64,000 bases of DNA, taken from positions 1 through 64,000 of the forward strand of contig JANBPK010000860.1 in assembly GCA_027579435.1 (NCBI GenBank), in the 5' to 3' direction. This DNA comes from Candolleomyces eurysporus (taxonomy: Eukaryota > Basidiomycota > Agaricomycetes > Agaricales > Psathyrellaceae). The position numbers and the translations under genes were made by a program. Below, one piece after another: positions 22,160 to 47,650 of this stretch (the stretch's first letter is position 1; every line of letters starts with the position of its first letter). The notes under the pieces are model-generated. The model made no database searches. It was not told the DNA's origin and saw only the letters and a program-made list of their open reading frames with translations.

Positions 22160-22176
22160 CAGCTGGTCTGTTGGTC
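22160..22176 (+). promoter_or_regulatory. Shared CAGCWGGTCTGT element of peptide gene A
   Basis: CAGCTGGTCTGTTGGTC, 42 bp after a TTTAAAA box near 22,112 and 87 bp before the ATG. Same element as at the other family members. Confidence 0.6.
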
Positions 22177-22262
22177 AGTCGCTACTTCTACGCCTTCACG
22201 TCTTCGACCTCCAATCAGGCCACATTCCCGAGTTGGTTCACTGAGAACTACACAAGCAAACA

Positions 22263-22498
22263 ATGAAATTTGGTACCCAACTCCTGCTGTTGCTCTCAGC
22301 CACTCTACTCGCATTTTCGGCCCCTCTACCTTGGGACACTCCGGTAACGATCCAACTTGAGTACGGTATACATGACATACTTATTCATTGGACTTTTTCT
22401 CGATATAGATTTGGGCGACATCTTCGTCTGCTTCGATCGGTGGGTCATCGGGTCAAGGCTATCTACTGCCGCCGCGGCCCAGGATCCGTCGTGCATAG
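22263..22498 (+). CDS. Small secreted peptide A (two exons, 56 aa)
   Basis: Exon 1 22,263-22,343 (27 codons), intron 22,344-22,408 (GTAACG...ATATAG), exon 2 22,409-22,498. Exon 1 is a signal peptide with a Leu-rich core, cleavage expected after AFSA, then a PLPWDTP start of the mature peptide. Exon 2 begins IWATSSS and ends in a basic PRPRIRRA tail. The phase-0 intron right after a P codon, the tryptophan at position 2 of exon 2 and the upstream element are shared with the peptides at 25.5, 27.7, 31.2, 44.4 and 45.2 kb. There are no cysteines in the mature part, so it is not a classic Cys-rich effector. I do not recognise the family; function unknown, probably a secreted or processed peptide. 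Confidence 0.7.
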
Positions 22499-22559
22499 AG
22501 AATCTATTGTTACACGTGCAGGGATAAATATTGTCAGTTTTGTGTTGATTAAATTTGAT

Positions 22560-23870
22560 GAATAGGAGGGGGCCCTCTTTGAAGGGGTCGAAATTTGTTT
22601 GTGTGGCAGATGGATTGAAAAGAAACTGAGCATTGAACATTGCGATATACTTCTGCTTTTGGGAAGGGGAAGGTTTGGTGATCACACTGGCTAATGTCGA
22701 CAATTAGGTGGTCACAGGGTGCCAGGGGAAACACCTGCACCAACAGTATGTTGAAAGTATACCAAAAGGTATGCAAATCCTCAATATGACAGGCTTTTGG
22801 ATACCTTTTTATGTCTTTAATGTACCTTTGGGAAAGGAATTATTTGCCATACGCAGTCGGTCGGATTCTAATCTATAACTTCAAACCGACTTGCGGGCTA
22901 CTTATTGAGAAATTTTTCCCTAATGTATTGATTGATCTATCTTCATTTTTTTGATGTCTACAACACCGCAAGTGCCGGTGGAATCCCTGGGCAAATTAGC
23001 CACGTTCTATGCCGTTCCTGATTTCGGTTTTGAGCTTGATAATAGCTCTACATGCTAAGCAGATGACCTCTCCGTTCCCGCCTGGGATGACGGCGCTAGG
23101 GGGCATCCCCAAGAGAAACGGCATGCGTCGTTGCTCTAGTTTCGCGTCATTTTCGATGGTACCAGGTAAGAGGATGTTGTTCATGTTGAGGAGCGAATAA
23201 AGCGTTGCGCCAAGGGATAGGATGAGAAGTTGGCAGGTGAGCACGAGGATGTCAACGTCGACCAGAGGTGTACCTATATATAGTTCTAGGGTGGGTCATC
23301 ATTGGCACTAGGCACACGTTCTCGCCTGGAGACAAAGTTATGCTCTTTGAAAGGCTGATTGAGACCTCAGAGAATCCAGCGCAGATGTCAAACACACATT
23401 GTGGGGCATTGAATCTTGGAAGCATTGGTGGTCCATTTTGTTGAGATCCTTACCCCTGGTGTGACATTGCACTCCCAATGATTTGGGTTGGGACCACGGC
23501 TTTAACAGGTTCACGGTCAACCCTTGACTGTGCGCAGTAGGCCGATATCACAANTTTTTGCAACAGAATGTATTGTCTGGAGCTCTCCAACACATGCTTG
23601 GACCATTACAAAGGATGTGAGTAGGTGTCCTCTCAAACATCAATTATGGATACACTCAAGACGCCGAGCAGTACATACTTGCCTTAAGTGTATCCTTAAC
23701 TAACCTACATACCTGATACTGCGAGTGTCGTGGTCCTGCCACAACAAAGTACTGTGGTTTTCACCATCTCTGCAATACAAACTCGAAGAAACCGCAACCC
23801 AGAAGAAATGGTATTAGTGTCAATGATTCTATACACCTGTTTTCACCTTGCAAGGTATAGACTACCAGAA
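22560..23870. other. Mostly featureless; shared non-coding repeat
   Basis: 22,660-22,940 resembles 27,450-27,600 (gggaag.g.aa.gtt.gatcac, gtcggatt.t, tattgag words), so a piece of this flank was duplicated. A minus-strand frame at 22,996-23,244 shows one hydrophobic segment but no recognisable family. The N at 23,553 sits before a T run. Confidence 0.35.
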
Positions 23871-23878
23871 TGAACCTT

Positions 23879-24784
23879 TCAACATTCGTCATGCGACTTG
23901 ACCTCGAGTAATTCATCTTTGAAAAAGGCAAAGACCTTTTCGCCAATGGCTTCGTCAAGATCCAAATTCAAATTGAGGTCGACTTCGCTGCGATTATCGC
24001 AGCAAATGGTGCAATAGAATGGCCGTGCACTATATTTCGCATTCCAAGTGCTGATAGACGCACTGTTACACTCTTGGCAGGAAAGGTCCCCAGAGGTAAT
24101 GGGGATGCTTAACTTCTTGACGGCAAGAGGAACCCCTTGTGTGCTGGGCTCACCAGCTACCCATAGGATCTTAGCGAGGGTTTCCCAGCCCAGCGCCGCC
24201 AATTGATCCAGAGGATATTGGTGAGGGTTCCCCACAAGTTTCGTGTAACCTTCTTTCAGCCATTTGTAGATGTGACATTGTTTACCGATATTAATCTTTT
24301 CGATAAGCGTCAAGTTAAGACTTTCAAGCCTGGAGATTGCCATCGCTCGGATCTTTTGTACGTATGCTCCTTTTCAATTATCACCAAGTTGAGAGACAGC
24401 TCTGCCACACACCTTTGGCATATCCCAGCAAGTCGTGAGCTTTAAAGTCGCAATCCACTGCTCTTTGGAGAGAGAGAATTGGCCGGGATCTCTGGACGTT
24501 AAGATGAATAATTTGGCAAGCCAAAATGAGGAACGAACTGACGATGGATACATGACCTCCAGCAAGCTCTCGAACTCGAACGTTGAGCAAGGCAAATGAA
24601 TAGGGTTTTCGTCACTGCATCCTTCGCTTTGCTCTCCTTGTGGAAGATCGAACATATCAGGAAACAGGGAGTTGGACCATTTCTCGAAGCCATAAGAGGG
24701 AACGCGATGCAGAGTGTTTTCAGTGCGGAAGATGACGATGTTGTAGTAGAATCTGCCACGCTCAGCTGTAATTTCGGGCGACAT
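23879..24784 (-). CDS. BTB/POZ domain protein
   Basis: Exon 1 24,413-24,784, intron 24,353-24,412 (GTGTGT...AAAAG), exon 2 23,879-24,352; about 281 residues. The ATG at 24784 opens MSPEITAERGRFYYNIVIF. The N-terminal half is a BTB fold of the agaricomycete type: TENTLHRVPSYGFEKWS, FPDMFDLP, then PIHLPCSTFEFESLLEVMYP. The second half is helical with GYTKLVGNP and a Cys-containing C2-C2-like section (LSCQECN; YCTICC) that may bind zinc. Such proteins form large expanded families and typically act as dimerisation modules or adaptors for Cullin-3 ligases. The gene is intact. The upstream ATG at 24864 is in a different frame and is rejected. Confidence 0.75.
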
Positions 24785-24879
24785 CCTACAAGAAGGTCGA
24801 TGCCGATGGGCAGATAGTAGTGGTTGCTGTTCAAGAGGCCTGATGTCGACGTCGAATGCCTCATGGCTTGACACGTGCC

Positions 24880-25480
24880 ATGCTTACACTTGGTTGCCGA
24901 TTTATTAGAAGCCCAGCCTAGGCTTCAATTCTCCGGGTCATCTGCGGGCTGCGCAATTGCGAGTAGAATTCAAAGGGAGCCTAACTTGAAGCCGGTAAAG
25001 GTCGAACACGGTCATTCTCGGGATGGTAAAGTGCCATTGCATCTCGTACGATCAGATGCTAGAGCACCACGATCCCGCCCCAATTGGAGTCGCTCTTCCG
25101 ACTTTTGAACTTGAGAATCATCTGACAAAAAGGCAAGCCAGTGAGGATAAAACAATCCAGATGCCAAACCGGAACCAACTAACCATTCATAATTTGAAAC
25201 TGGGGTGAATCGGCTCGACGGTGGCAAAGCAACTCCCTAGCCTGAGACCATTCGGCTCTTACTCCTGCTATTTGTGTTAACGGCCTTGCCTAGTGCATTT
25301 TCGCTCCCTCCTGACTCGTCCACTCTGTTAATAGTCTCCAGTCANTTTTTTTATGTTCAACTTATGCTCACTACCTTACCACCCTCGAGATGGGGAATTA
25401 CCTGGATGACGCCGCCAAGTCTAGTAGAGACGACAAGCATAAAGAGGCTTAATGCTTAGAGTACTTTTGATTTATCACTA
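24880..25480. other. No supported gene
   Basis: Short frames only. 25,265-25,470 contains words reminiscent of peptide exons (for example a ccttgcctagtgcattttcgctccct run), possibly another eroded peptide copy, but no structure can be defended. N at 25,345 precedes a T run. Confidence 0.3.
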
Positions 25481-25482
25481 CA

Positions 25483-25496
25483 TAGGTCTGTTAGTC
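25483..25496 (+). promoter_or_regulatory. Shared GGTCTGT element of peptide gene B
   Basis: TAGGTCTGTTAGTC, about 40 bp after CATAAAG (25,439) and 48 bp before the ATG. Confidence 0.5.
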
Positions 25497-25543
25497 GTTG
25501 CAAGAGCCCATCCAGACGCCCATCCTAGCCATTCATCCAGGAA

Positions 25544-25893
25544 ATGTTGGGCTCAGGACGACATCCACAGCAATTCGCTCCCTTGAGCCTTTTGTTTGCG
25601 ATTACCTTACCCTTCTCACCGATGGTGTTGACCATGTTCTCAGCTTCACTCCCACTTCCTCAACTAGTACCGCTACCTCAGCCTGATTGGTCCACTCCTG
25701 TAAGACATATTAAACTCCTTTGAATCAGCTTTTAGTCCTGCAGCTAACTCCCTTTTACTCTCACTAACAACCTTACTTACTGACTCAACCTTGGCTTGAC
25801 CCTGATCTTGATATGATGTAGGAACGGGCGGTTAGCTTCAGAATACCGAGCCTCAAAGCCCTGTGTCGTGGCCCAAACGCTAGAGCAAAATAG
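25544..25893 (+). CDS. Small secreted peptide B (two exons, 75 aa)
   Basis: Exon 1 25,544-25,699 (52 codons), intron 25,700-25,821 (GTAAGA...GATGTAG), exon 2 25,822-25,893. The N-terminus is longer than in A, with hydrophobic core LLFAITLPFSPMVLTMF, then SLPLPQ...PLPQPDWSTP before the splice. Exon 2 reads ERAVSFRIPSLKAL and ends NARAK. The conserved tryptophan of exon 2 is arginine here. Very similar at DNA level to peptide D and relic C, so all three come from recent local duplication. Signal peptide quality is weaker than in D, so this copy may be drifting toward loss. Confidence 0.55.
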
Positions 25894-25943
25894 ACCTAAA
25901 TAGATGGATATGCAGGCCGGCTTTGATTTGAAGGAAGGTTTGA

Positions 25944-26307
25944 TTGGACTGTGGTGTGAGCCTTTTGTTCACGATATCTTTACTCTTCTCATTGATGGTG
26001 TTGCCTGCATTCTCAGACTGTTCAAAACCACTTCTTCAAGCGCTACCTCAGCCTGAGTCCTTGTTTGGGACAGCCAGCGGGCCTGCTCCCGGTAATACAG
26101 AATCGACTCTTTTAGATCGGCTTTTTGTCCCGTACTCCCTTCGATTCTCTACCTGTATTTGTTTCCGCTTGCTTACACCAACGACCTTGCTAACTAACTC
26201 AACCTTGGCTTGATCTTGACATCAATGCGATGTAGGAATGGGCAGTTACCTTCAGAATGCCAAGCTTCAAAGCCCGAGTTTGTCGTCAAAACCCTAGAGC
26301 AAAGTAG
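25944..26307 (+). pseudogene. Relic C of the small secreted peptide family (start codon lost)
   Basis: Exon 1-like sequence (LLFTISLLFSLMVLPAFS) aligns with peptides B and D, but the ATG position reads AGG/TTG and the nearest upstream ATGs (25,904 and 25,910) are out of frame. Exon 2 at 26,236-26,307 is intact: EWAVTFRMPSFKAR then a stop after NPRAK. The shared upstream element is missing too. It is probably not expressed as a secreted peptide. Confidence 0.55.
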
Positions 26308-26309
26308 AC

Positions 26310-26930
26310 TCATAAATGAATGGACACATGGGGTGATTTATTACTTTCATTCGTCGTAGCAGAGCGTGGATGTGTACTACGCACCTAGACTCAGACAGGG
26401 GGCAGCCAGATAGACTTTATGCGGCCATCAAACAAGATGTTTGCACAGGGGAGGTACACACTGGAGTCTAAGTTGATGTCTGTTCCCAACGGGCACTGTA
26501 GACCTCAACTGTACATGGTTTGTGACCCGCTCGCTTTGCACCCACCAAAGTGACCCGGCATGACGCTGTCGACGACTACGCACAAGTGTTTGAGAAGGAG
26601 TATGATTAACCTTCCTTCTATCGAATGCGTTTGTTGGTTCCATCCGCCTCTTTCATGTCAGGCATGAGTTAGACGGTCTTCAGTGGCCTGCCAGCTCCTC
26701 CGAGCTGCTGCTTCAGAGCTTGTTCTTCTCTTTGATCTCCACAGCCACAAGAGCCCTTTCCTTTGCATCTAGCCTTCTTTCTACTGGCCATGAATTCCAG
26801 CAGTCATCCATACGTAAGTTATTCCAGATTTCTTACCCTTTATGATGTCTGTTGAAATCGCTCGTCGTCCCGAGCACTTGTATAGCATTTGGTGACAATT
26901 AGTCCTCCCGCCGACATCAACGACAAGCCA
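26310..26930. other. No supported gene
   Basis: No frame with a credible start, intron structure or motif. Confidence 0.3.
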
Positions 26931-26934
26931 GGAA

Positions 26935-27430
26935 GGATGTGCTAACTGACATTCCTGGGAGTCTGAGATTTGGGAAGGACGATACTGATCAGGTATGCAC
27001 TCGTTCGGACATCGCGCTTGAACTCTATCATCCTGCTGGTGATGACACCGTACCATTCTCTTCAGTGATTGCACTGCTGAAGGATGGAACGTATTTGCAG
27101 AAGCTGCAGTTCGAAGATGCGGACATGGTAGAAGGATTACATCTGAAAAATGGTCGCTCAAGATCACACGGTATGTAACATGTAACACATAGAAGTCTTG
27201 CTCACCCCCTGGCCTTACTATGATATATGGTACCGCCCGTTGATCGGAGAATGCAACGGGTCTTAACTCTTCCTGCCTGGAATTCGAAAGATCTCCTCAG
27301 CGTTAGTCTACCTTGTGTTTCTAGCAATACGCATGTCCAAGACTGATTCGAGCACAAACAAATCCAAATTATCGTAACGGTTCGGGCCAGAGTACGAGTA
27401 CTAGCGTGAGCCAAATACACTTAGCGCGTC
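26935..27430 (+). pseudogene. 5' fragment of a GH28 gene, decayed
   Basis: Read rightwards it matches the first exons of the GH28 gene at 53.9-56.1 kb: FGKDDTDQ with the same donor gtatgcact, then EAAVRRCGHG (the real gene has EAAVQRCGHGG), then a gatcggagaatgcaacggg segment corresponding to the KMQWDLRSS exon and its following intron. It lacks the start, is broken by stops and ends before any catalytic part. Confidence 0.65.
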
Positions 27431-27636
27431 GGCTTAGCACTGCGGCATATTTTCACGTTTGGGAAGGGAAAAGTTGATGATCACTCTAACTTACCTGACA
27501 ATCAGCGGTCGGATTTTGAGCTACAAGTTCAAAGTTGACAAGTTAGGGTCACGTATTGAGACATCTTGCGGCGAGCTGGATTGATTGATGCAGCCATCAT
27601 TCAATCATTGGCATAGCCAGGGATACCCAAGTCGAG

Positions 27637-27643
27637 TATAAAG
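27637..27643 (+). promoter_or_regulatory. TATA box of peptide gene D
   Basis: TATAAAG 99 bp before the ATG and about 40 bp before the shared element. This spacing places the element at or just after the transcription start. Confidence 0.5.
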
Positions 27644-27676
27644 AGCGAAGGTTTCAGTGTTTTGAGTTCTTCACTG

Positions 27677-27693
27677 CAGCAGGTCTGTCAGTC
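27677..27693 (+). promoter_or_regulatory. Shared CAGCWGGTCTGT element of peptide gene D
   Basis: CAGCAGGTCTGTCAGTC, 43 bp before the ATG at 27,736. Confidence 0.6.
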
Positions 27694-27735
27694 GTTGCGA
27701 GAGCCCAGCCAGACATCCCACCGTCCATCCAACAG

Positions 27736-28108
27736 ATGTTGAATTCAGGACGACACCCACGACCGCGATTCGCCTCCTTGAGCTGTTTGTTCGCAATTCT
27801 TTCACTCTTCTCCCTAACGGTGTCGCCCGCACTCTCAGCTCCACTCCCACTTCCTCAGCCACTACCGCTACCGGCGCCTCTACCTCAGCCTAATTGGCCC
27901 ACTCCGGTAAGACATATCGAATTCCTTCAAGTCATCTTTTCATCCTGTAGCTCACTCCCTTCGGATCTCTGCTTGTATTTTGCTTCCACTTACTGACTCA
28001 ACCTTGGCCTTAACCTCGATCTTGACATCAATGTAGGAATGGGCAACTTCCTATAGCATACCAGACTTCAAAGCCCGACCTCGCCCCCGAAAGATTAGAG
28101 TAAAGTAG
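27736..28108 (+). CDS. Small secreted peptide D (two exons, 80 aa)
   Basis: Exon 1 27,736-27,906 (57 codons), intron 27,907-28,036 (GTAAGA...ATGTAG), exon 2 28,037-28,108 (23 residues). A hydrophobic core LFAILSLFSLTVSPALSA is followed by a Leu-Pro repeat (APLPLPQPLPLP) and WPTP before the splice. Exon 2 is EWATSYSIPDF then KARPRPRKIRVK. The first 13 residues before the core are polar and basic, as in peptide B. All elements of the family are present and no defect is visible. The basic C-terminus resembles that of peptide A. Function unknown. Confidence 0.68.
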
Positions 28109-28109
28109 A

Positions 28110-29620
28110 TTCATAAACGGATGGATGACCAAGGCGATGGGTCTTCAAGTCAAAAATAAACACAAATATTCACTTGGTACAAATAGATCACGAGAGCATA
28201 CACAGTATGGTGAACTTGTAGCAGCGGGCGTTACTCAATGTCGTGAGCGGTATTCGTGAGTCAACGCATTGGTCCAGCATTCAGTGGGCTGAAGAGCTGC
28301 AGGAGTATCTTAGCAGTAGCCTCGTTGCAAGGCTCCAGAGGCAGAAAAATAGCACACGGATATCGCACGGCGACTCTACTTGCTACATGAACGTTTGGAA
28401 CCTAATGAGGCGGGGGACGAGTGGCTCTCCATGCTGTGTCAATTCCGGCACTATCTGCGAGTCGGGAGCCCGGGACATGGAAGGGCATTGAAAACGTCAC
28501 TGGTGGCAGATTTGGCGATGAGGTACTTTGCAAACCACCACCACCTAGACCTGCCGCAGAGCGGTGGTGCTGCCTTGGAAAGGGTTGATCGGGCAGCCGA
28601 TTAGGTGTATATGCCCAGGGAAACACCGGAGCCGTCGGGGCTGAACAACGACGTGCAGAGTCAGCTAGTGTATTTTCTCAGGAGCAATTGAGTAGTCGGT
28701 ATCTGTAATATATAGTAATTAATCTGAAAATGCCTGCGAGCGAACGTGCAAAATTATGAACTTTGGAATGAGTTATCTCAGCGTCAGGTATTGATTGGGA
28801 CAGTCGCTGTTGGCCCTTCGCAGCTACCAAGGCGGCGCACGATGAATTTTCTTACAGGGGTTTTCCTATCTAGGAGGTTTGAGAATCGCTGTCAATTATG
28901 ACCCATCGACCTTGGAAACTTGCATACGTATATGCCATGGAACGTTCACAGAACTTCGCGTACGCAAAGCAAAATTATGAGGAAGTGGAAGAATTCAATT
29001 CAGAACCTGGAAAGAACGGGCAAGTCGGGACCTTTCGGCAGGAGCCTATAAGCGAAGAAATTGTGAAGTGACTTCTTGGCCCGAGCTTCGGTACTAGCGA
29101 CGATTTGCTGGCGTATTCTGTCATTGTATCAATGATGCTACTTTGGACAACAAGAAATTGCGAATTGACGAGCGCCACAAGCTGACTGACCAGTAAACAT
29201 GCATATGACAGACCATATCCTTCAAACGATGGAAAGTCAAATTTCACGCGCTAATAGGCAACAGGTGTCGGAACAGATTTAGAGGAACACTTGCATAGAC
29301 GCTGTACTTGTCCTCCAGTCCGATGTAACGCCGCAAGTCACCTAATCGTGTCGAAGTTCTAAAGTTGGCAATGTATTGAGCTTCTAAAGCCTATGCAACA
29401 CCTTCTTTAATTCACTGCCCAAAGCTATTCACTCATCTGAACCCTCAAAATACGCTATTTGCCACAGTGCAATGGCAGACCTGGTCAGGCGAGACATGAC
29501 CACAGATTCTGTGCAAATGACGAACTTTGGCGTACGGGGCAACAAAAAGGGGTAAGAGTGAAGTGACCCCCGATTCATAATATTCGATCCACTGGGAGTC
29601 GTCGTCTAGATCTGGAACAT
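28110..29620. other. No supported gene
   Basis: Several frames of 70-90 codons on both strands, none with an intron pattern or recognisable family. One on the plus strand near 28,243-28,600 could be an eroded exon. Nothing firm. Confidence 0.3.
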
Positions 29621-29628
29621 GGCAAGAG

Positions 29629-29635
29629 TATTTAA
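29629..29635 (+). promoter_or_regulatory. TATA-like box of the I66-type inhibitor gene
   Basis: TATTTAAG about 69 bp before the ATG at 29,698, followed by a C-run with an N at 29,649 and a CT-rich leader. Confidence 0.4.
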
Positions 29636-29697
29636 GTCGGAACGCTATNCCCCCCCCAATAGCCCCAGCAGCTTCTCTCTGCGTTCACTAAGCAACA

Positions 29698-30290
29698 ATG
29701 TCTCTCCCAGAAGGTCTCTACATCATCGAGAGCAAGGAGAACGGTGCTACCATTGGCCGCAATCCTAGGGAGGACCTCTCCCTCTTGCCAAAGCCGGTCG
29801 TTATCCACCCTGTCGGCGAAGGCCTTCTCCCTCAGGCTAGTGTACGTCTCCACTCCGCCGACGTATTCTATCGATCAAGCCTAACGTTTTAATACCTCTC
29901 TGGTCTATCAGTGGATCATTAAGCCTGAGGGCGAGGGAACGTATCTGCTCGAAAATCTCGGGGGCTTCGCAATCAAGCAGGACAAGGCCCTGTACGCGGA
30001 CATACAGCAGCCTCCGACTCTTACCAAGTGGAAGCTCGAGCATCAGCCCCAACATGGGGAATCCGTGTATACGTGAGTCGGCTAGTACGGTATGCTTTGA
30101 CTAGACTTGCGTGTGCTGATCTCCTGAATGTCACAGGATAACTCTCCCTGAAAGCGGTGATGGGTGGACCGTCGAAGATACCGAGGCGTGGTCGCAAATT
30201 GCAGTTTTACCGCTTGCTGCTACGTTTAGCCTTCCGCCTCAGTACTTCCCTCGTGGCATTTTCTCGATCACTCCTCTTCCACGTGAGTAG
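29698..30290 (+). CDS. I66 (cospin)-type serine protease inhibitor, beta-trefoil
   Basis: Exon 1 29,698-29,841 (48 codons), exon 2 29,912-30,072, exon 3 30,137-30,290; about 152 residues, the usual size for the family. The N-terminus MSLPEGLYII followed by TIGRNPREDLSLLPKPVV has the shape of mushroom I66 inhibitors (an IGR...EDRSLLPK block). WIIKPEGEGTYLLEN, WKLEHQPQHGESVYTI and QIAVLPL with a PPQYFP end follow the known beta-trefoil repeats. No signal peptide, as in described cospins, which are cytosolic and act against trypsin-like proteases of fungivores. The P1 residue in the reactive loop cannot be assigned with certainty. The splice sites (GTACGT, GTGAGT) are canonical and keep the frame. 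Confidence 0.72.
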
Positions 30291-31040: not shown

Positions 31041-31044
31041 CCAA

Positions 31045-31051
31045 TATAAAA
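31045..31051 (+). promoter_or_regulatory. TATA box of peptide gene E
   Basis: TATAAAA 45 bp before the shared element. Confidence 0.5.
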
Positions 31052-31089
31052 GCATGAAGGATCGAGTGTATTGGCTTGGTTACTTGCTG

Positions 31090-31106
31090 CAGCAGGCCTG
31101 TCAGTC
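31090..31106 (+). promoter_or_regulatory. Shared CAGCWGGTCTGT element of peptide gene E
   Basis: CAGCAGGCCTGTCAGTC with one base changed (GGCCTGT), 122 bp before the ATG. Confidence 0.55.
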
Positions 31107-31227
31107 AGTCACTCAGATCTCTCCTCACCCGTCTCTACTCGCAGGCTAGAATACTATCCGGGTTAAAATCGGGCTTCACACGAACTTGTAACCTTGAAAC
31201 AAACACTATCCATCGAGGAGAATACAG

Positions 31228-31605
31228 ATGAAGAAGTTGGACTTGGGCCTCTTCCTAGCGGTTATTTTACTAGGGCTCCTTTCATGGGCGTCACCCGCAT
31301 TCTCCGCCCCATTACCTCGAAAGTCACCTCAATCTCGGTCTGCCACGAATATGCCGGTGAGACACAAACCTACTCCCTTCTCTTCATCTTCTCGCCTGCA
31401 TGTATCAGGTTACTCACTCGCTCGCTCATTCATTCATTCATTACTATTTCCTTAATTTGTATTTTTGATCACGCCTCATTATTAGGATTGGGCAGTCAGC
31501 TTTCTGACACCAGTTATACATGGCGCACCACCCCCCAAACCCCGTCGCCCGTCACCTCAGAGACAGTCGCCGCCCAAAGCGCAGGGACAGGGCCAGAAAG
31601 GCTGA
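31228..31605 (+). CDS. Small secreted peptide E (two exons, 82 aa)
   Basis: Exon 1 31,228-31,356 (43 codons), intron 31,357-31,485 (GTGAGA...TATTAG), exon 2 31,486-31,605. The signal peptide core LFLAVILLGLLSWASPAFSA is one of the clearest in the family, followed by PLPRKSPQSRSATNMP. Exon 2 starts DWAVSFLTPVIHG and continues into a Pro/Gln/Lys-rich tail (PPPKPRRPSPQRQ, then GQGQKG). Two eroded partial copies of this gene lie at 33.15 and 34.26 kb, showing it was part of a triplicated block. No defect is seen. Confidence 0.7.
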
Positions 31606-32034
31606 TCGTTGGATAGGTAGATATATCGTCTCGGATATATGGTTTATGATAGTTAGGCTGTCGTGTATGTAACTAACATCGGACGAGAGGGCGGGAGTGC
31701 GCACATAAGTAGATCCAGGCGCACTTGATGAAAGTGCGATATATGCTGCTTATAGTCGGTGCTATGTTAGAAACCCTGGTGGTTTTCATTTGGTGTGCGC
31801 GTCTCGACATATATTTGTTAGCTCGATCCTCCATGAATCTATCCGGTAATACCAGACTACTCTTCTCTCCTCCTTCTCCTTCTACCGCTGCTCCTCTGCT
31901 CCTCCTCTTTGAATTCCATTCTGGTGCACTGCGTACTGTGCAGAGGAAAACTTTGTTGTTGTTGGATATCGGACCAACTTATCCAGCTTCAATTCATCTC
32001 ATAGACGACCATCCATCTCCTCGGTGCACCGCCT

Positions 32035-32457
32035 TTAGGTCCTGTTAGGCCTCAGGTTCGCCAAACCCCCTAGAAATGGCCGGGATTGACTCGGACGTGC
32101 GCTCTGGATCTGCGCTTGATTCACAGGATCTCTATCACGACCCTCGGCATAATGCACACCGCCCATATCTGGGCTTAAGGCGCTAATCCAGCGCTGTTGT
32201 ATCGGATCGAATAGTAGGGAATCAGCGTCGGGCTCTGAGTGGGTACGGGCAGAAGATGAGGTTCGAAGAGTAGGCATCATACTACGCACATCAGATCCGA
32301 GCCAGTCGTACGGAGTTGGATTAGGATTTCGTGCTTCGAGGTCGAGGTGGGGTGCGAGTTGGGGTCGAGGGAGGGGTAAACAGTGAACAGTGACTGCTTC
32401 CAGCGAGACTAAGAGGAGGAAGGAAACGACGAATGAAGAAACCATTCGGTGAGCCAT
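32035..32457 (-). CDS. Small secreted peptide F (two exons, 108 aa)
   Basis: Exon 1 32,290-32,457 (56 codons), proposed intron 32,194-32,289 (GTGCGT...CAACAG), exon 2 32,035-32,193. The start at 32,457 gives MAHRMVSSFVVSFLLLVSL, cleavage near VHC, then LPLPRPQLAPHLDLEARNP. Exon 2 opens RWISALSPDMGG and ends in an Arg-rich tail with stop at 32,035. The frame also stays open across the proposed intron, so an unspliced 140-residue form is possible; the splice is preferred because paralogues G and H need it. The shared element is at 32,516-32,533. Confidence 0.62.
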   Translation of the reverse strand: MAHRMVSSFVVSFLLLVSLEAVTVHCLPLPRPQLAPHLDLEARNPNPTPYDWLGSDVRSMMPTLRTSSSARTHSEPDADSLLFDPIQQRWISALSPDMGGVHYAEGRDRDPVNQAQIQSARPSQSRPFLGGLANLRPNRT

Positions 32458-32515: not shown

Positions 32516-32533
32516 GTCACGACAGACCAGCTG
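32516..32533 (-). promoter_or_regulatory. Shared CAGCWGGTCTGT element of peptide gene F
   Basis: CAGCTGGTCTGTCGTGAC on the minus strand, 59 bp before the ATG, about 60 bp after a TATAAGT box at 32,591-32,597. Confidence 0.6.
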
Positions 32534-33160: not shown

Positions 33161-33234
33161 GTGTCGGCGTCATCCTTGGCGTCGGCCCACTACCTCGAAA
33201 GTTGGCTCAATCTCGGTCTGCCACGAAAATGGCG
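33150..33234 (+). pseudogene. Relic of peptide E exon 1 (copy 1)
   Basis: GPLPRKLAQSRSATKMA followed by a GTGAGACA donor matches the end of peptide E exon 1. The signal peptide and exon 2 are missing. Exon 2 of peptide G on the other strand begins about 30 bp to the right. Confidence 0.5.
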
Positions 33235-33265
33235 GTGAGACATACGCCTGCATGTATCAAAGTAC

Positions 33266-33601
33266 TTACTCACTCCTTCGTTTACGATCCTTCACGCCTA
33301 ACCCTGGCATTTTGGCGCTAACGTGCCAGCCTCGCTATATCGAATTGAAGAGAGGGTGTCAACATTGGACTCTGAGGTTGTTTCGAAGGGGGATATAAAA
33401 ATCGGAATGAAGGTGAGGTTAACATACCTCGAGTCCAGACCAATCCGAGTCGTCAGGAGTTGGATTTCGTGCTTGGAGGTCGAGGTGGGGTGTCAGTTGG
33501 GGTCGAGGGTGTGGCAGAGAGTGGACAGTGAGCGCTTCCAGCGAGACTAAGAGGAGGAAAGAGACGAGGAGATGGACGAGCGAAGTAACACGTTGAGTCA
33601 T
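33266..33601 (-). CDS. Small secreted peptide G (two exons, 80 aa)
   Basis: Exon 1 33,428-33,601 (58 codons), intron 33,335-33,427 (GTATGT...ATATAG), exon 2 33,266-33,334. MTQRVTSLVHLLVSFLLLVSL is the signal peptide, with expected cleavage near VHS; LPHPRPQLTPHLDLQARNP follows. Exon 2 reads RGWHVSAKMPGLG then a basic KDRKRRSE end. Unspliced, the frame stops two codons after the donor, so the intron is needed. Close paralogue of H (35.3 kb) and more distant from F. Confidence 0.62.
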
Positions 33602-33660: not shown

Positions 33661-33678
33661 GTCGCAACAGACCAGCTG
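33661..33678 (-). promoter_or_regulatory. Shared CAGCWGGTCTGT element of peptide gene G
   Basis: CAGCTGGTCTGTTGCGAC on the minus strand, 60 bp before the ATG, with a TATAAGG box about 60 bp upstream (33,738). Confidence 0.6.
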
Positions 33679-34290: not shown

Positions 34291-34573
34291 GCCCTCATTG
34301 CTGGCGTCGGACCCACTACCTCAATTTTGGCTCAATCTCGGTCTGCGACGAAAATGTCGGTGAGACATAAATGCCTCCATGAATCAAAGTACTTGCTCAC
34401 TCATTCATGTACGATTCTTCAACTTGAATTTTATGATCACGCCTGACTGTTAGGATTGGGCAGTCAGCTTTCTGATACCAGCTATACATAGCATCACCCC
34501 CCAAACCGCGTCGTCCGTCATCTCAGAGAGAGAGTCGCCGGCTAAAGCGCAGGGACAGCGACAGAAATGCTGA
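34255..34573 (+). pseudogene. Relic of peptide E (copy 2, exon 2 still open)
   Basis: The exon 1 end (LAQSRSATKMS, then a GTGAGACA donor near 34,360) lacks a signal peptide. Exon 2 at 34,454-34,573 is open: DWAVSFLIPAIHS, then a tail ending AQGQRQKC. It cannot make a secreted product. Confidence 0.55.
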
Positions 34574-34888: not shown

Positions 34889-35308
34889 TTAGGTCTTGAT
34901 TAGCTTCATCAAACGCTCGGGAATAGGTGGCAAGCCTGGTTTTGGTTTTGGTTTTGCTTGGGGTTGACGTGCGCTCCGAGCTGGCGGTGGAGTCACTGGA
35001 ACTTTACGACTGACACCGACACCATGTTCACCGCCTAGCCCTGGTATTTTGGCGCTAACCTGCCAGCCCTGCTATATCGAATCGATGGGAGGGTGTCAGC
35101 ATTGAACTCTGAGGGGAGTAGAAAAATCGGAATGAAGGTGAGGTTAATTGACCTCGAATCCAGACCATTCGTCAGGAGTTGGATTTCGTGCTTGGAGGTC
35201 GAAGTGGGGTCGAGGGTGTGGCAGAGAGTGGACAGTGAGCGCTTCCAGCGAGACTAAGAGGAGGAAGGAGACGAGGAGGTGGAGGAGCAAAGTAACACGT
35301 TGAGCCAT
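34889..35308 (-). CDS. Small secreted peptide H (two exons, 112 aa)
   Basis: Exon 1 35,153-35,308 (52 codons), intron 35,072-35,152 (GTCAAT...ATATAG), exon 2 34,889-35,071 (60 residues). MAQRVTLLLHLLVSFLLLVSL is the signal peptide; the mature part starts LPHPRPHFDLQARNP. Exon 2 begins QGWQVSAKIPGLGG, almost the same as G, then runs into a Pro/Lys-rich region (AKPKPKPGLPPIP) that G has lost through a changed frame end. The GTCAAT donor is weaker than the GTATGT of G. Confidence 0.62.
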
Positions 35309-35368: not shown

Positions 35369-35386
35369 GTCGCAACAGACCAGCTG
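35369..35386 (-). promoter_or_regulatory. Shared CAGCWGGTCTGT element of peptide gene H
   Basis: CAGCTGGTCTGTTGCGAC on the minus strand, 61 bp before the ATG; identical to that of G. Confidence 0.6.
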
Positions 35387-42300: not shown

Positions 42301-43673
42301 TTCGTGTTCATTGATCTGTTGAGTACGATCATTCTCCCCGCAACGGTGGTTTACGTGAGTCCTCTCTTTCAGTTCTGTTTAGTGACCACGAGTGCTGATG
42401 GTGTTTCGTAGCTCGTCTACTTGATCATCGTGGTTTCGACCAGCGCAGCTGCCTTCCCTAGGATTGCCATCATCATGTTGGGTATCGTCTACGGTCTCCA
42501 GGTTAGGCTTTCCGCTTTTGATTGCGTACCTCTTGAGCTCACGTATATTCCTAGGCAATCATCTTCATTCTCAAGCGCGAGTTCATGCTTATCGGATGGA
42601 TGGTCGTTTACATCGTCTCGTATCCCGTCTATTCGTTCTTCCTTCCGGTCTACTCCTTCTGGTGCATGGACGAATTCAGCTGGGGTAACACCCGTGTCGT
42701 CGTCGGAGAGGGCAAGGAAAAGAAGGTTCTCATGAGCGAGGAAGAGAAGTTTGACGAGTCGATGATCCCCCTCAAGAAGTTCAGCGGTATGTTTTCTCCA
42801 GCCGAGTCGTCGATCCCTACATACTGATACGTGGTTCATTCATTAGAGTACGAAGCGGAAGCTTGGGATACGGGAAGCAACAAGCATTCGGACGACACTG
42901 GGTACAACTCGCAAAGTCGGCCAAGATCCCGCGCTCCTCCAAGGTCTCGAGACCACTCGCCGCACAACTACCAACAAGGCTCCCAGGCGGGCGACTACTA
43001 CCGCGATACGAACGTCACCAACAACTCGAATCCTAACCTTCGCCTTGGAGCCGGCGGAAGCCAGCTATCTCACCAGAGTCATTATTCGCAGCAAGTTCCG
43101 ATGCAAACTGGTGGCTTCGGCGCACCGCAGTTACCATTCATGCCATTCGCTGGAGGACCTGGGTCGGTCACTGGATCGGATTTCGGTGGGATGCCGCCTG
43201 TTGGCATGATGGGATACCAGAACACTGGGAGCGTGTATGGGATGATGAACGCACCGAGGAACACCATGATGTCGAATATGAACATGTTCGGTGGTGGAGG
43301 GATGATGGGGAGCGCAGGTAATTCGTCGCAGCAGGGCGGAATTGGGATGACACCGTTTGCGAACCAGCAGAGGCCCATGTCGACGTTCTCCATGGCTACG
43401 AGCGTGAATCCGTTTGCAGGGCCAAGCATGAATCCTAACCCGACCGATGATGAGTTGTTCAATGCGCTGAGGACGTATCTGAGTACGCAGGATTTGATGA
43501 CTGTGACTAAAAAGTGAGTAAATGTTTGGATTTTTGTCCAGTGGAGCAGGTTATTGATGTTTTTGTCCAGGACTGCACGTGAAGCGATCATGGCCAAATT
43601 CCCTAAGGCTGACTTGACAAGCAAAAAGGATTTCTTGAATCAGTCGATTGATAGGATTCTTTCGGAGACGTAA
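36355..43673 (+). CDS. Class V/VII-type chitin synthase with myosin motor-like domain
   Basis: Makes cell-wall chitin from UDP-GlcNAc at the hyphal tip. ATG at 36355 in CCGCCATGG. Ten exons: 36,355-36,735; 36,794-40,601; 40,665-40,990; 41,061-41,415; 41,483-41,702; 41,758-42,354; 42,412-42,501; 42,555-42,786; 42,847-43,513; 43,571-43,673. With two corrections they sum to 2,259 codons. Domains: myosin head (P-loop GITGSGKT near residue 128; NPNASRHGR switch; DQPGF), two membrane helices near 1,190-1,250, a cytochrome b5-like segment near 1,261 ([16 protein letters not shown]), the chitin synthase core ([32 protein letters not shown] near 1,846), more membrane helices, a Gly/Met/Asn-rich linker and a DEK C-terminal domain. 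Corrections: G6 to G5 near 36,630 and removal of the N at 37,614; each restores the expected frame. The gene is intact if these are assembly errors. Confidence 0.9.
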
Positions 43674-43689
43674 CGTGATCATCCTATAG

Positions 43690-44340
43690 AATTCTTTCCT
43701 TGTTTTTCTTTCTCTCGTTTCATCATTACATCGGACATTATCTTTCTTCTCATCATGACTCTCTGCCGNCTCGTTTGCTCTATAATCTCACAATCCTGCA
43801 TCGTATAGCATCGTACAATATTTTATCATATTCAACTGGACTTTATGTGCCACTCTCGCTCGCTCTCTTGTTTCCTGTACTGTCTGGGTCTTTCCTCTCG
43901 ATGGATGATTAATCTGATTAGACACTCCGTGATGATGTCTTCCTCTGTCCTTCCGTGTTCTGGTCGTTCGTTTCATGGTTTCTTGACTCCTCTCTCTCTT
44001 CTCTTGCTTTGCATCATCGAACGTCTAGTACGCATCTACAGTCTACCGTAGTACCTACATGCATCTGTTTATTCCTTACATACCGTAATTTTACGGAACT
44101 TGAACTTATAGATCTTCGTCTCAAACTGCAACTTCGTTGGGTTTTCTGATTTCGTGATCATTGGATGATAAACTCAGGTTTCATTGCACTACCCGGCCCT
44201 TTGCCAACTGCAATTGTCCTCCAGGCCAGCATTAATTACAGACTAAAACTCCGAGCCTCAAGGCTATGTACTGTCTATGAACACTCCAATTCCGTGCCTA
44301 CTGACAGACCATACATTCGGAAGGCTCTTGCTTGAGTCCC
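43690..44340. other. 3' flank of chitin synthase, no gene seen
   Basis: T- and CT-rich; single N at 43,769. No coding feature. Confidence 0.4.
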
Positions 44341-44350
44341 TCGGTCGTCC

Positions 44351-44635
44351 TCAAAGCGTCTTACTGGCGATAGTTGGGCCTCTCCAGCCCACAGCCCATA
44401 TCTATGTAGCCGCAACGAGAGTTGTGGCGTGCCAAATGAGACCGAAGGTAATTGCTTGCACTTGGAAAAGAGATAATCTTACCGGAGTACTGGGCCTCAT
44501 TAGCCAGGAGTCAACATCACGGGTGACTGGGAGGGAGGACGCAGGCGAAGCCGATAGTAGAAGCAAGAGTAGTAGCAGTAGTAAGCTCGACGACGAGCTT
44601 CGAACCAGATTCGTCACGTATGATCCCCGATTCAT
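44351..44635 (-). CDS. Small secreted peptide I (two exons, 67 aa)
   Basis: Exon 1 44,483-44,635 (51 codons), intron 44,402-44,482 (GTAAGA...ACATAG), exon 2 44,351-44,401 (16 residues). The signal peptide has an exceptionally long Leu tract after a Ser tract, cleavage near ASS, then LPVTRDVDSWLMRPSTP. Exon 2 is IWAVGWRGPTIASKTL. The upstream in-frame codon at 44731 is TTG, so the ATG at 44,635 is used. It lies beyond the chitin synthase yet keeps the intron position, the tryptophan motif and the promoter element of the left-hand cluster. Confidence 0.66.
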
Positions 44636-44704
44636 CTTCTGCGGTTTTGAAACTTTTGTTTGCGATAGTCGGTTCAAGGAGAGGAAGAAGGTTCCGTAGA
44701 ACGA

Positions 44705-44718
44705 GTGACAGACCGGCT
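44705..44718 (-). promoter_or_regulatory. Shared CAGCCGGTCTGT element of peptide gene I
   Basis: CAGCCGGTCTGTCAC on the minus strand, 70 bp before the ATG and about 37 bp after TATATAAGAGG (44,744-44,755). Confidence 0.55.
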
Positions 44719-45089
44719 GTGAGCAAAGCAAGAGAGTTGGAATCCTCTTATATATCGAATGTAATCCGGGGAGCCCGGAAGATCAGGGTTAGGTTATTCC
44801 TGGAGGAAACTTATTAACCAAAGGGAAATTTTGCTTAGAGAGGATCACGACTTAAAATAGTCACATGCCCACGCCTGCCACTGTATCACAAACAAACTGG
44901 CAAATACGATTGTCGGAAGGTAATTATACACAGTTGCGTTTGTAATCAGTCAAAATATCCCGCTATAAATCAAGTCCCCGACTCCACACTGCGTGCAGGG
45001 AGGGTTCAGCCCTGCATAACATCCATTGCCGCCGTCAAACTCCGTTTCCGCTACGGTGATTCGACTCGATCAAGAATTGTGTAAACCAA

Positions 45090-45381
45090 TCAATGAATTC
45101 GTCCTCTGAAGGTTCCCGTCCGAATGTTGGGCGTGATAGATGGTAAAAGCCAGGTAATCGCCCATTTCTATGTCGATGAAGTGTCAACAATAACGTGCGT
45201 CAGTCAGTATCCACTTCTGTGACGGGAAAATGGAACGGGAGTTCATTACCGGAGGATCATTGTAAGGCAAAGGGAGAGGAGCTGAGAAAGCAGGCAACGC
45301 TGCTAAGAGCAATAGCAGGACCAAGAACCCAGATGAGGTCAGGGTAGAGAGACCTGTGCTTGTTCGTTGACCCAATTTCAT
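45090..45381 (-). CDS. Small secreted peptide J (two exons, 69 aa)
   Basis: Exon 1 45,250-45,381 (44 codons), intron 45,168-45,249 (GTAATG...ACATAG), exon 2 45,090-45,167 (25 residues). Signal peptide core FLVLLLLLAALPAFSA, then PLPLPYNDPP. Exon 2 is KWAITWLLPSITP followed by a basic GTFRGRIH end. An upstream in-frame ATG at 45,504 overlaps the TATA box (TATAAAAA on the minus strand, 45,488-45,496), so the downstream ATG is chosen. All family marks are present. Confidence 0.68.
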
Positions 45382-45437
45382 TGCTTGAGTAGCTTTGCCT
45401 GGCTCAGGAAGGTAACGACTCGAGGTATTTGGGTCTT

Positions 45438-45454
45438 GACTGACAGACCAGCTG
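45438..45454 (-). promoter_or_regulatory. Shared CAGCWGGTCTGT element of peptide gene J
   Basis: CAGCTGGTCTGTCAGTC on the minus strand, 57 bp before the ATG and about 40 bp after the TATA box. Confidence 0.6.
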
Positions 45455-45919
45455 TAGTGGGGACCCAAATGTGAATTTATCTGATCCTTTTTATACACAC
45501 TCATTCACTGGCATGACCCGCAAAACTCGGAGTCGGAAAGTGAAATAACGACGCTCAATGTCGGGCTGTAACTCACAGAACTGAATATGCTCGTGGCGTT
45601 CATCACCAACAAACTGATATGATGCTAGCGACACATCAATACATAATGTTCATTAAGATCTTTTCATCCCCAAGTTCGAACGTTTGGAGCAAGGATGGCT
45701 TCGTGTCTGCGTAGAAGCCTTAAGAACATCTCCATAATACTTTTCTCGCTGACATACCATCTTGAAGATTAGGGCCTCAGCAGCTTGCTCGAGGGAGATA
45801 ATGACAGAGTGCGGCATCACGATTAATTTCCGCTTTAATTTTGTCAATGAAGCAAAACCAGGCACGAGAATCTTCAAGCAGGCAGCGTATTTCTTCTATT
45901 CCCTCTCTTCCTAGGGTCC

Positions 45920-46380
45920 AATGTTGTCGAAATCGCCTTTCTCCGATCGTTTGGGGAAGAACTACGCCCTTTTGGTAGAAGAAATCAAACAAGACTCGCC
46001 AAGCCGCGTTAGACGAGATTGGCGAACAGATCAACGTACTCGGCGAGCGTCGTCGCGAGCTTGAAAAAATCATCGATGATCATTCCGCTTTACTGTCACA
46101 CATCCGCCAAATTCTTCCCGATATTCTCTGCTCAAACTTTCAAGCTTGTATACTCAGCTCATGCCCGATTGCGCCGACCATGGCATCCGCCAAGCATCCG
46201 GCGGCCGCTATCACTGGTCAGCCACGCAGAGTCAGATGTTGACATCCCTGCGTACCCCAATGACACGCTCTCCATAGAAACATCCGCGCTGTTTCAGAAT
46301 GAGCTCGTCCAGTGGAAGCGGAAACTCGCCAGCCGTCGAAATTTTATGGAATTGTGGATTACTCCGAGCTGGCGTTAGCT
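45920..46380 (+). pseudogene. Truncated F-box gene copy
   Basis: Matches the 5' third of the intact F-box gene at 47,809: the start (MLSKSPF), GERRRELEKIIDDHSALLS, then LASRRNF near 46,340. It is broken by deletions and frameshifts (a deletion after the start; loss of the HVCQLWRQI region) and stops around 46,378 where the copied block ends. Confidence 0.7.
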
Positions 46381-47361
46381 GAGCTGGAACCCAAGCTGGG
46401 GGAATTCCAGCTCAACTTCGAGCGCGGCTACTGTATCACAAACTGGCAGATACGACAGTTGGAGCTCTAATACCCAGTTGCGTTTGTAATCTATCGCGCT
46501 ATAAATGAAGTCCCCGACTCCACATTGCGTGCAGGAAGGGTTCAGTCCCGGCATATTGCCGCTGTCAAACTCCGTTTCCACTACGGTGATTGGACTCAAT
46601 CAAGACTGCCAATCACTGAATTCTTGGCTTGTCCACTCAAGGACCTGACTCGCTCCTCCGCAACCCACATTCGTCTTTTGAAGGTTCCCTTCCAAGCGTT
46701 GGAGTCATACCATTTCCCTAACCCAAAATAGCCGCCTTCTTGCGAGCCAATGATGCACCAACCCGTGTCGATTATGAAACCCCATGATTTCGGCTCTACT
46801 AGAGCTCGTAGACGTGCAAATACAGTAACCAATACCAGATGCTGCAAACCATGTATGCCACTTTATTGGGATGATTGGTACGCGGAGAACATAGCACATG
46901 GGCGGATGTGTGGTGGTTGTAGGTATGACCTGGGCTCACAATCAGCCCCGCTTACGCAAACCACAAACAATATAGAGACATTGTTCCGATGGAAACTGCT
47001 AATATACTGCCTACAGACGGATCGGTGAGGGCAGTGGCAGTTGGAGTATGTCGATTCAGGACCATGGATCTAGCTCCCATTCGATCAGGTATCCTCAGAG
47101 AGTCGGGGACGAGCGACACTACGATGATTATCGCAACATCTTCAAAAGTCTCTTCGAACCTCCCTTCTAGTATATATAGTAAAGTGTGAAACAAGCCGAA
47201 GTAATGCAGTGCTAAGTGCTCTTGAAATCTGCCACTCGGCGCCGAGCGTTCCACCCTCTTCAACTTGAAGCTACTCCGCCCATTGATCCATGCAATTCAC
47301 AAAAGTCAACAATCTTTATACAGTACGCATAGAACCATACTCTACGCACTACAACCCGAGG

Positions 47362-47650
47362 TCACGGGGGTCGCGCCGGTCTTTGAGGTCCTGCAAAACG
47401 GGAACCGGGTCCGGGCGCAACAAATGGTGAGCTCCAAGTAATCGCCCATTTCTATACCGATGAAGTGTCAATAACGTGCGTCGGTCAGCATTCACTTCTG
47501 TGGCGGAAAATGGAACGGGAGTCCTTTACCGGAGGATCATTGTCAGGTAAAGGGAAGAGAACTGAGAAAGCAGGCAACGCTGCTGAGAGCAATACCAGGA
47601 ACAAGAACCCGAATGAGGTCAGAGTAGAGAGACCTGTTCGCTGTCATACC
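47362..47650 (-). pseudogene. Relic J' of small secreted peptide J
   Basis: Exon 2 (47,362-47,451) is intact: KWAITWSSPFVAPGPG and a Pro/Arg-rich tail. Exon 1 sequence is recognisable (GFLFLVLLSAALPAFSV, PLPDNDPP, then a GTAAAG donor near 47,526), but no in-frame ATG precedes it (a TGA lies upstream), and the shared promoter element is gone. Confidence 0.6.

Follow-up and report, generated by a model that had tools for sequence, protein, structure and literature searches.

Predicted small secreted peptides of Candolleomyces eurysporus with a tryptophan-led core and a common 5' element

Do the very small split genes clustered on one contig of the agaric Candolleomyces eurysporus encode a family of secreted peptides, and which part of their products is conserved? 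The question arises from a 64,000-nucleotide stretch of DNA (assembly GCA_027579435.1, contig JANBPK010000860.1, positions 1 to 64,000 of the forward strand), analysed here as a whole and referred to as the window. For this stretch the original prediction proposed nine intact two-exon genes, each named here by its first coding position, as well as a set of relics. The nine genes are the following.

22263..22498, plus strand: gene 22263; exon 1 22263-22343, intron 22344-22408, exon 2 22409-22498 (IWATSSSASIGG...); homologues on contigs C62 and C517
25544..25893, plus strand: gene 25544; exon 1 25544-25699, intron 25700-25821, exon 2 25822-25893 (ERAVSFRIPSLK; Trp lost)
27736..28108, plus strand: gene 27736; exon 1 27736-27906, intron 27907-28036, exon 2 28037-28108 (EWATSYSIPDFK)
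31228..31605, plus strand: gene 31228; exon 1 31228-31356, intron 31357-31485, exon 2 31486-31605 (DWAVSFLTPVIHG)
32035..32457, minus strand: gene 32457; exon 1 32290-32457, intron 32194-32289, exon 2 32035-32193 (RWISALSPDMGG)
33266..33601, minus strand: gene 33601; exon 1 33428-33601, intron 33335-33427, exon 2 33266-33334 (RGWHVSAKMPGLG)
34889..35308, minus strand: gene 35308; exon 1 35153-35308, intron 35069-35152, exon 2 34889-35068 (GWQVSAKIPGLGG)
44351..44635, minus strand: gene 44635; exon 1 44483-44635, intron 44402-44482, exon 2 44351-44401 (IWAVGWRGPTIAS); homologue on contig C1212
45090..45381, minus strand: gene 45381; exon 1 45250-45381, intron 45168-45249, exon 2 45090-45167 (KWAITWLLPSIT)

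At the predicted place, 9/9 genes have a hydrophobic N-terminus and allow a single phase-0 GT–AG intron to be drawn. The motifs said to open exon 2 also read as quoted, with the qualification that Trp is present in only eight of the nine: gene 25544 (ERAVSF) lacks it, and its homologues on C62 and C517 read EWAVSF, i.e. have kept it. After the putative signal, the product of gene 27736 contains nine X-Pro dipeptides. The intron donor of gene 35308 is an unusual GTCAAT, and the 96-nt intron proposed for gene 32457 has no in-frame stop, so that its retention would yield an unbroken ORF of 140 residues. Genes 32457, 33601 and 35308 are, together with their flanks, tandem duplicates of differing age (33601 being a duplicate of 35308), and the nine genes are therefore not nine independent cases. 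The homologues of 22263 and 25544 on C62 and C517 (78–81% DNA identity) and that of 44635 on C1212 (74%) all retain the frame, the intron position and the GT–AG sites. Together with the control ORFs and the independent 5' element described below, this conservation indicates that the drawn structures exceed what chance would give. As to the relics, of which at least five had been announced, DNA similarity identifies the four listed below, and the fifth, a single weak tblastn match at 25256-25309 that resembles a signal exon, is doubtful.

25957..26307, plus strand: relic of the 25544/27736 type; signal-exon fragment, exon 2 readable as EWAVTFRMPSFKA
33183..33242, plus strand: relic; piece of the exon 1 end of a gene of the 31228 type
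34312..34573, plus strand: relic of the 31228 type; exon 2 (DWAVSFLIPAIHS) and a fragment of the end of exon 1
47413..47637, minus strand: relic of a 45381-type gene; in-frame start not seen by eye

All nine window genes are preceded, 43–138 nt before the ATG, by an element that reads, with variants, CA(C)AGC[A/T]GGTCTGT; the original prediction made no mention of it. Its positions are given below, that of gene 25544 having been assigned by eye.

22160..22175, plus strand: 5' element of gene 22263, CAGCTGGTCTGTTGGT
25480..25495, plus strand: 5' element of gene 25544, variant ACATAGGTCTGTTAGT
27677..27692, plus strand: 5' element of gene 27736, CAGCAGGTCTGTCAGT
31090..31105, plus strand: 5' element of gene 31228, variant CAGCAGGCCTGTCAGT
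32518..32533, minus strand: 5' element of gene 32457, CAGCTGGTCTGTCGTG
33663..33678, minus strand: 5' element of gene 33601, CAGCTGGTCTGTTGCG
35371..35386, minus strand: 5' element of gene 35308, CAGCTGGTCTGTTGCG, as for 33601
44704..44719, minus strand: 5' element of gene 44635, CAGCCGGTCTGTCACT
45439..45454, minus strand: 5' element of gene 45381, CAGCTGGTCTGTCAGT

The 65.9-Mb genome contains 17 copies of the exact 14-mer form of the element, versus two of a reversed control, and the Trp architecture lies downstream of 15 of these 17 occurrences, five in the window and ten outside. One of these ten outside genes, C62a, was already known from its DNA similarity to window genes; nine of the ten have consensus-like donors. 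The remaining two occurrences precede a larger secreted gene (C506) and a region with no signal-like ORF (C354). A regular-expression search placed a TATA-like box upstream of the element in 20/24 members, compared to 339/4000 random positions (8.5%), the combined promoter pattern being written as TATA, 30–65 nt, then CACAGCNGGTCTGT. At the 39 loci carrying CAGCNGGTCTGT, a signal-like ORF follows in 20 and the strict motif in nine, versus 191 and 0, respectively, for 3000 random positions; the strict automatic caller recovered only 9/39 because of its narrow rules on hydropathy, distance to the ATG and Pro spacing, and it missed the signal of C506, which a separate hydropathy reading scores at 2.23. 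The element also stands before some secreted-protein genes that lack the core described below. Among the matches to CAGCNGGTCTGTY, 17/34 precede neither core genes nor other secreted genes, a figure near the control count of 15. Two element matches (C62:81837 and C517:23212) were rejected, as they are followed by no signal-like ORF and resemble the coding sequence of another gene; those at C75, C668 and C825 share a mutually similar context, yet no signal-like ORF follows. An Rfam scan of the window gave no family at the gathering score.

As judged from these searches, the predicted family extends genome-wide, beyond the nine reported genes. With near-duplicates counted, it comprises 28 loci, to which the four relics are added; the figure of 28 is a lower bound, since most one-mismatch matches to the element (80 versus 63 in the control) were left unread. 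Removing the near-duplicates C517a, C517b, C1230 and C572a leaves 24 distinct loci, and 12 of the distinct loci lie outside the window once C62a, C62b and C1212 are also dropped. Most members outside the window, the 12 among them, were found through the element, whose presence there is accordingly no independent test of membership. The bodies of these 12 outside genes have no DNA match to the window genes at E<=0.01, and there is some kinship among them (C983b with C539b and C983a; C1231a with C1231b). A hydrophobic N-terminal stretch (10 residues, mean hydropathy above 2.0) is present in 28/28 members, and 22/28 have no Cys past residue 25. Searches of Pfam, NCBIfam and PDB, in which 22 of the 28 members were scanned, returned no credible match (best E-values 0.046, 0.22 and 0.45, the last for a PDB profile).

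The conserved part that the members appear to share, here called the core, spans about 11 residues. Among the 12 outside genes, residues following the Trp conform to W-x-[VTIS]-[STAG]-x3-P-x-[ILMVF]-G, above shuffled sequences at most positions: [VTIS] stands at W+2 in 10/12 (shuffled mean 3.2), Pro at W+7 in 7/12 (mean 1.2) and Gly at W+10 in 9/12 (mean 1.4), each count being reached by 0/2000 shuffles. Five of the 12 lack Pro at W+7, and in two of these it is one residue off. Over the 24 distinct loci, Trp is found in 23, Pro at +7 in 16 and Gly at +10 in 13, the latter two again reached by 0/2000 shuffles. Note that the W/P/G core is a family trend from which some members deviate.

The gene structures were drawn locus by locus, guided by the Trp alone, with a search that demanded GT and YAG, and the residues after the Trp played no part in the choice of intron. 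A phase-0 intron could thus be predicted in 28/28 members; this regularity is partly by construction, because introns were picked so as to set the Trp near the start of exon 2, and loci at which no such intron could be drawn were left out of the membership. Two members have rare GTC donors. Among ORFs from outside the family that begin with a hydrophobic segment, 4/130 permit, with consensus-like donors, a phase-0 intron that places a Trp at exon-2 residues 2–4, a control narrower in its donors than two of the members. The broader control, which accepts every GT donor under looser limits, gives 33/180 (18%), so one such drawn intron is, by itself, weak evidence. The intron has no in-frame stop in 8/28 members, and frame-preserving read-through is possible only for gene 32457.

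Beyond the core, the products diverge. The close copies 33601/35308 and C240/C572a have kept the core and differ completely in their tails, and whole-coding-sequence pairwise dN/dS values range from 0.34 to 1.47 (eight pairs, not all independent), exceeding 1 in 3/8 pairs for the whole gene and in 5/7 pairs with a value for exon 2 alone. The rapid diversification originally proposed for these short, secreted-looking two-exon genes is thus borne out. Tails are net positive in 23/26 members. In 14/14 outlying members the Trp is preceded by a basic residue at most seven positions away, versus 60% when other residues of these proteins are taken as the reference; several window genes lack any basic residue ahead of the Trp, and in 8/26 members none lies between residue 18 and the core.

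We consider that these genes encode precursors of secreted peptides that are co-regulated under a common 5' control element and combine an active, conserved core with a drifting basic tail, a reading drawn from sequence comparison to which we assign a probability of about 0.5. The layout read along the DNA is a TATA-like box, the element, a hydrophobic N-terminus, a drawable phase-0 intron, a last exon bearing the core and a variable, usually basic tail. The element would fall within the first transcribed bases and could place the set, along with a few larger secreted proteins, under common transcriptional control. The product would enter the secretory pathway and be cut by signal peptidase just ahead of an X-Pro N-terminus, the stretch before the Trp acting as a putative pro-region. 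In the outlying members, the basic residue 1–7 positions before the Trp could allow a Kex2-like protease to free the core peptide; in the window subfamily, a dipeptidyl peptidase could shorten the product along its runs of X-Pro dipeptides. The role of the core would be to bind a single kind of target, a receptor belonging to the fungus itself or to its partner or host, and the tail would be under little constraint.

Among known systems, agaricomycete small secreted protein families are similarly short, secreted-looking, clustered, fast evolving and devoid of Pfam domains, whereas the present family is Cys-poor and has a defined Trp core in its last exon and a common 5' element. Fungal Kex2-processed repeat peptides likewise derive from secretory precursors, and the outlying members resemble them in having basic residues ahead of the core, but the core here has no internal repeats, and the eight members mentioned above lack a basic residue between residue 18 and the core. 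The CAAX pheromones through which basidiomycetes act on STE3 are also small peptides, and this fungus has many STE3 matches; unlike them, the present products have a signal-like N-terminus and no CAAX box (among the C-terminal four residues of the 28 proteins, 0/28 begin with Cys). The PG[IL]G endings may resemble those of plant-type CEP/PIP peptides.

The same observations can be read otherwise. Secreted effector-like peptides, directed against a host or competitor in an arms race that drives their diversification, and not serving as signals within the fungus, would account for dN/dS values of up to 1.47, for the gene clustering and for an element shared with other secreted proteins; the conserved core argues instead for one conserved target, and we regard this alternative as a tentative one. 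It is rather doubtful that the peptides are cationic antimicrobials or cell-wall binders, in which the basic, often Pro-rich tail would be the active part, the Trp core would fix the peptide to a membrane or wall, and the full mature chain would act without further cleavage. The charge of the tails, the clustering and divergence of the copies and the scarcity of Cys past residue 25 fit such a function, but conservation is seen in the core and is lowest in the tail, which in some members is almost missing (four residues after the core in 44635, three in C240). The two exons could also open secreted genes that continue further, or be left over from the larger secreted family to which C506, C237 and their relatives belong and which has the element as well. 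The same element and TATA spacing lie upstream of the three larger genes measured (C506, C124 and C237), and in C506/C237-type genes the last exon opens with a Trp after an intron (WSYGGNIKKKSKDGKVITFGKR in C506, WSYLGTGGQRKGNTITFGKKK in C237) and ends basic. Apart from the Trp, however, no P-x-[ILMVF]-G core is present in the last exons of C506 and C237, and a stop lies 3–47 residues past the core in each of 26 small genes, as drawn; we consider this explanation unlikely.

Two further readings appear highly improbable. The W-x6-P-G spacing of the core, which matches that of budding-yeast alpha-factor, might suggest mating pheromones of that type: alpha-factor precursors too combine a signal, a pro-region and a core Trp with Pro seven residues on, and among the distinct members Gly follows at +8 in 6/24. 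However, this Gly is weakly enriched over the distinct loci (62/2000 shuffles reach the count) and unenriched in the 12 outside genes (296/2000), and the core is not tandemly repeated: 27/28 proteins have no more than one match to W-x6-P-x-[ILMVF], the two matches in 45381 overlapping rather than forming a repeat. No STE2 match was found in this genome at E<=1, a weak negative because the STE2 control was positive in 0/14 genomes; by comparison, STE3 gave 40 matches in this genome. As for chance ORFs within duplicated non-coding DNA, several window copies are indeed segmental duplicates, flanks included, some pairs have dN/dS near or above 1, and such introns are drawable in 33/180 ORFs of the broad control, but the core is conserved at loci whose DNA does not resemble that of the window genes, and the loci are associated with the element; we regard this explanation as disfavoured.

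Going further than the reading of co-regulated secreted precursors, the family might constitute a basidiomycete peptide-ligand system independent of CAAX pheromones, in which dozens of dispersed genes under one near-start element release processed peptides with a receptor-binding core W-x6-P-x-[ILMVF]-G that differ in specificity residues and tails; we hold this extension to be speculative and rather improbable. Annotation readily overlooks peptides that are short and spliced, have few cysteines and contain no known domain. The 14-base element would allow such genes to be hunted in other fungi from DNA alone, and would be a starting point for tracing what activates them. Should the core prove to be a ligand, these peptides would represent a second secreted peptide language of basidiomycetes, beside the CAAX pheromones.

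The genome comprises 65.85 Mb in 1296 contigs, and the window corresponds to bases 1–64000 of contig C1148. By reading its sequence, we recovered each of the nine two-exon peptide genes of the original prediction, with the frame as claimed and with the claimed phase-0 intron, as drawn, in all nine. These genes, named by start coordinate, and some other features of the window are as follows:

3368–16425, minus strand: several consecutive H-type lectin-like ORFs (Pfam found three domain matches in each of the two ORFs tested)
22263, plus strand: peptide gene
25544, plus strand: peptide gene without a Trp at the start of exon 2
27736, plus strand: peptide gene
29698–29841: first exon of an I66 protease inhibitor gene, flanked on both sides by genes of the peptide cluster
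31228, plus strand: peptide gene
32457, minus strand: peptide gene within tandem duplications; intron length a multiple of three, frame uninterrupted
33601, minus strand: peptide gene within tandem duplications
35308, minus strand: peptide gene within tandem duplications; donor GTCAAT
44635, minus strand: peptide gene
45381, minus strand: peptide gene
47413–47637: relic inside a duplicated block

The window also contains a fasciclin-domain ORF, a POT transporter, a chitin synthase that also has myosin and cytochrome b5 portions, and an F-box-like ORF under the Pfam cut-off. Elsewhere in the genome, a search gave 40 exon-wise matches to STE3 pheromone receptors, clustered on contigs C63, C215, C372, C912, C1141 and C1217; no STE2 match was found at E≤1, in a search whose control was positive in 0 of 14 genomes. 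Together with the I66 inhibitor of the window, these receptor results point to an agaricomycete as the most likely source.

Alignment of the nine upstream regions disclosed a block common to all of them, CA(C)AGC[A/T]GGTCTGT[C/T], in variant form at 31228 (CAGCAGGCCTGTC) and 25544 (CATAGGTCTGTT). In the 24 family rows examined (the 25544 element being placed by eye), this element lies 43–138 nt 5′ of the ATG, and a regular expression detected a TATA-like box 31–64 nt 5′ of it in 20 rows, versus 339 of 4000 random positions. This spacing would place the element among the first bases to be transcribed. Genome-wide, 34 matches to the pattern CAGCNGGTCTGTY were found, versus 15 for the reversed control; seven are in the window, each upstream of one of the nine genes, and the 27 others fall upstream of five family genes (C62a, C254, C1230, C539b and C1212, where letters distinguish loci on one contig), of five larger secreted genes, or of neither group (17 matches). 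Exact matches to the 14-mer CACAGCNGGTCTGT number 17, versus 2 for the reversed control; at one mismatch, the counts are 80 and 63.

The exact matches, taken without requiring the Trp motif, served as bait. Five lie at window genes and 12 elsewhere, ten of which are followed by a signal-like ORF with a drawable phase-0 intron and a Trp within the first four residues of the next exon (C62a, C240, C539a, C539b, C572a, C572b, C983a, C983b, C1231a and C1231b; C240 and C572a are 93% alike). Since C62a had already been found by DNA similarity, the independent score is 9/11. The C506 match lies upstream of a larger secreted gene, and no signal-like ORF was found downstream of the C354 match. Inexact matches and DNA similarity added C62b, C517a, C517b, C1212, C254, C1230, C551, C539c and C983c, the last of which has its Trp at exon-2 residue 6 and lacks the proline. 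Altogether, the family amounts to 28 loci, window genes included and near-duplicates counted; the original observation of a peptide family is correct, and its scope is larger than was stated. Three family genes are clustered on C983 (8827, 16132 and 23229; element loci L079 and L087) and three on C539 (1924, 24858 and 29463; L074, L080 and L084). Both clusters hold a related multi-membrane-pass ORF (299 and 298 aa, respectively), for which no Pfam match was found in the C983 case.

Could such genes be drawn by chance? A signal-like ORF lies downstream of 20 of the 39 element loci examined versus 191 of 3000 random positions, and the strict motif downstream of 9 of the 39 versus 0 of 3000. In control ORFs, a phase-0 intron placing a Trp at residues 2–4 could be drawn in 4 of 130 cases with consensus-like donors, a rule met by nine of the ten outside genes from exact matches (C1231b being the exception). 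When any GT was accepted and the limits were relaxed, 33 of 180 control ORFs allowed such a drawing, so that any single drawn intron weighs less. The odds are nevertheless unchanged, because the case is carried by the element and the residues following the Trp. More specifically, among 12 distinct outside genes, and with residue sets picked after viewing the motif in window and outside genes jointly, the counts at positions +2, +7 and +10 after the Trp were reached by none of 2000 shuffles and those at +3, +4 and +9 by 6, 25 and 18; no enrichment was found for G at +8 (296 of 2000). None of these 12 gene bodies matches a window gene at the DNA level at E≤0.01, while some match each other, and the sole protein link to a window gene is that of C1231a to 35308 (E about 1e-4, 28-sequence set).

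DNA similarity alone identified copies of 22263 and 25544 on C62 and C517, and a copy of 44635 on C1212. The C62 and C517 copies are almost the same as one another and share about 80% identity with the window. Exonic gaps between 22263 and its C62 copy are multiples of three; in the C517 copy, an extra deletion removes the old stop and the frame ends a few residues later. Eight pairs were usable for dN/dS, the two C62/C517 pairs being left out as too alike.

Pairwise dN/dS (NG86, whole coding sequences); the pairs are non-independent, as the 25544, 27736 and C62b sequences recur in three of them.
22263/C62a: 0.34
25544/C62b: 1.47
25544/27736: 0.77
27736/C62b: 0.38
33601/35308: 0.56
44635/C1212: 1.28
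C254/C1230: 0.45
C240/C572a: 1.24

Per exon, with few synonymous sites and with exon 2 taken whole (core and tail together), values ranged from 0.17 to 1.34 for exon 1 and from 0.27 to 6.9 for exon 2 (seven values). Our reading is that the coding sequences are, overall, under weak or relaxed constraint; constraint on the core is argued from the residue enrichment after the Trp in the shuffle test, not from dN/dS.

The larger secreted genes preceded by the CAGC[A/T]GGTCTGT block are on C124, C506 and C1054 (L010, L014 and L026) and on C237 and C531 (L011 and L015). In the three measured (C506, C124 and C237), a TATA-like box lies 36–37 nt 5′ of the element. The C506 gene, the one tested against Pfam, gave no match. 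The two genes read to the end, C506 and C237, have a last exon that opens with a Trp after an intron and has a basic end. This may hint at a common origin with the small peptide genes, but the P-x-[ILMVF]-G core is missing from both exons. Note that C75, C668 and C825 (L009, L020 and L021) share a CAGCTGGTCTGTTACC block that resembles the element and has similar surroundings in all three; no signal-like ORF was found within its reach.

As for the products, most members have their signal cut placed directly ahead of an X-Pro by a simple −3/−1 scan, which is suggestive only, since the scan favors that cut. The putative cut is followed by nine consecutive X-Pro dipeptides in 27736 and seven in C62b; in other precursors, X-Pro runs are a type of prosequence trimmed by dipeptidyl peptidases. 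A basic residue lies at most seven positions before the Trp in 14 of 14 outlying members, versus 60% when residues other than this Trp are taken from those proteins, a modest excess; no basic residue is present between residue 18 and the core in 22263, 25544, 27736, C62a, C517a, C62b, C517b and C1212. The tail is net basic in 23 of the 26 members counted, and 22 of 28 are devoid of Cys after residue 25. Judged from sequence, the family, with a possible target in the fungus itself, a host or a competitor, is most likely a co-regulated set of precursors for secreted peptides that share a conserved active core.
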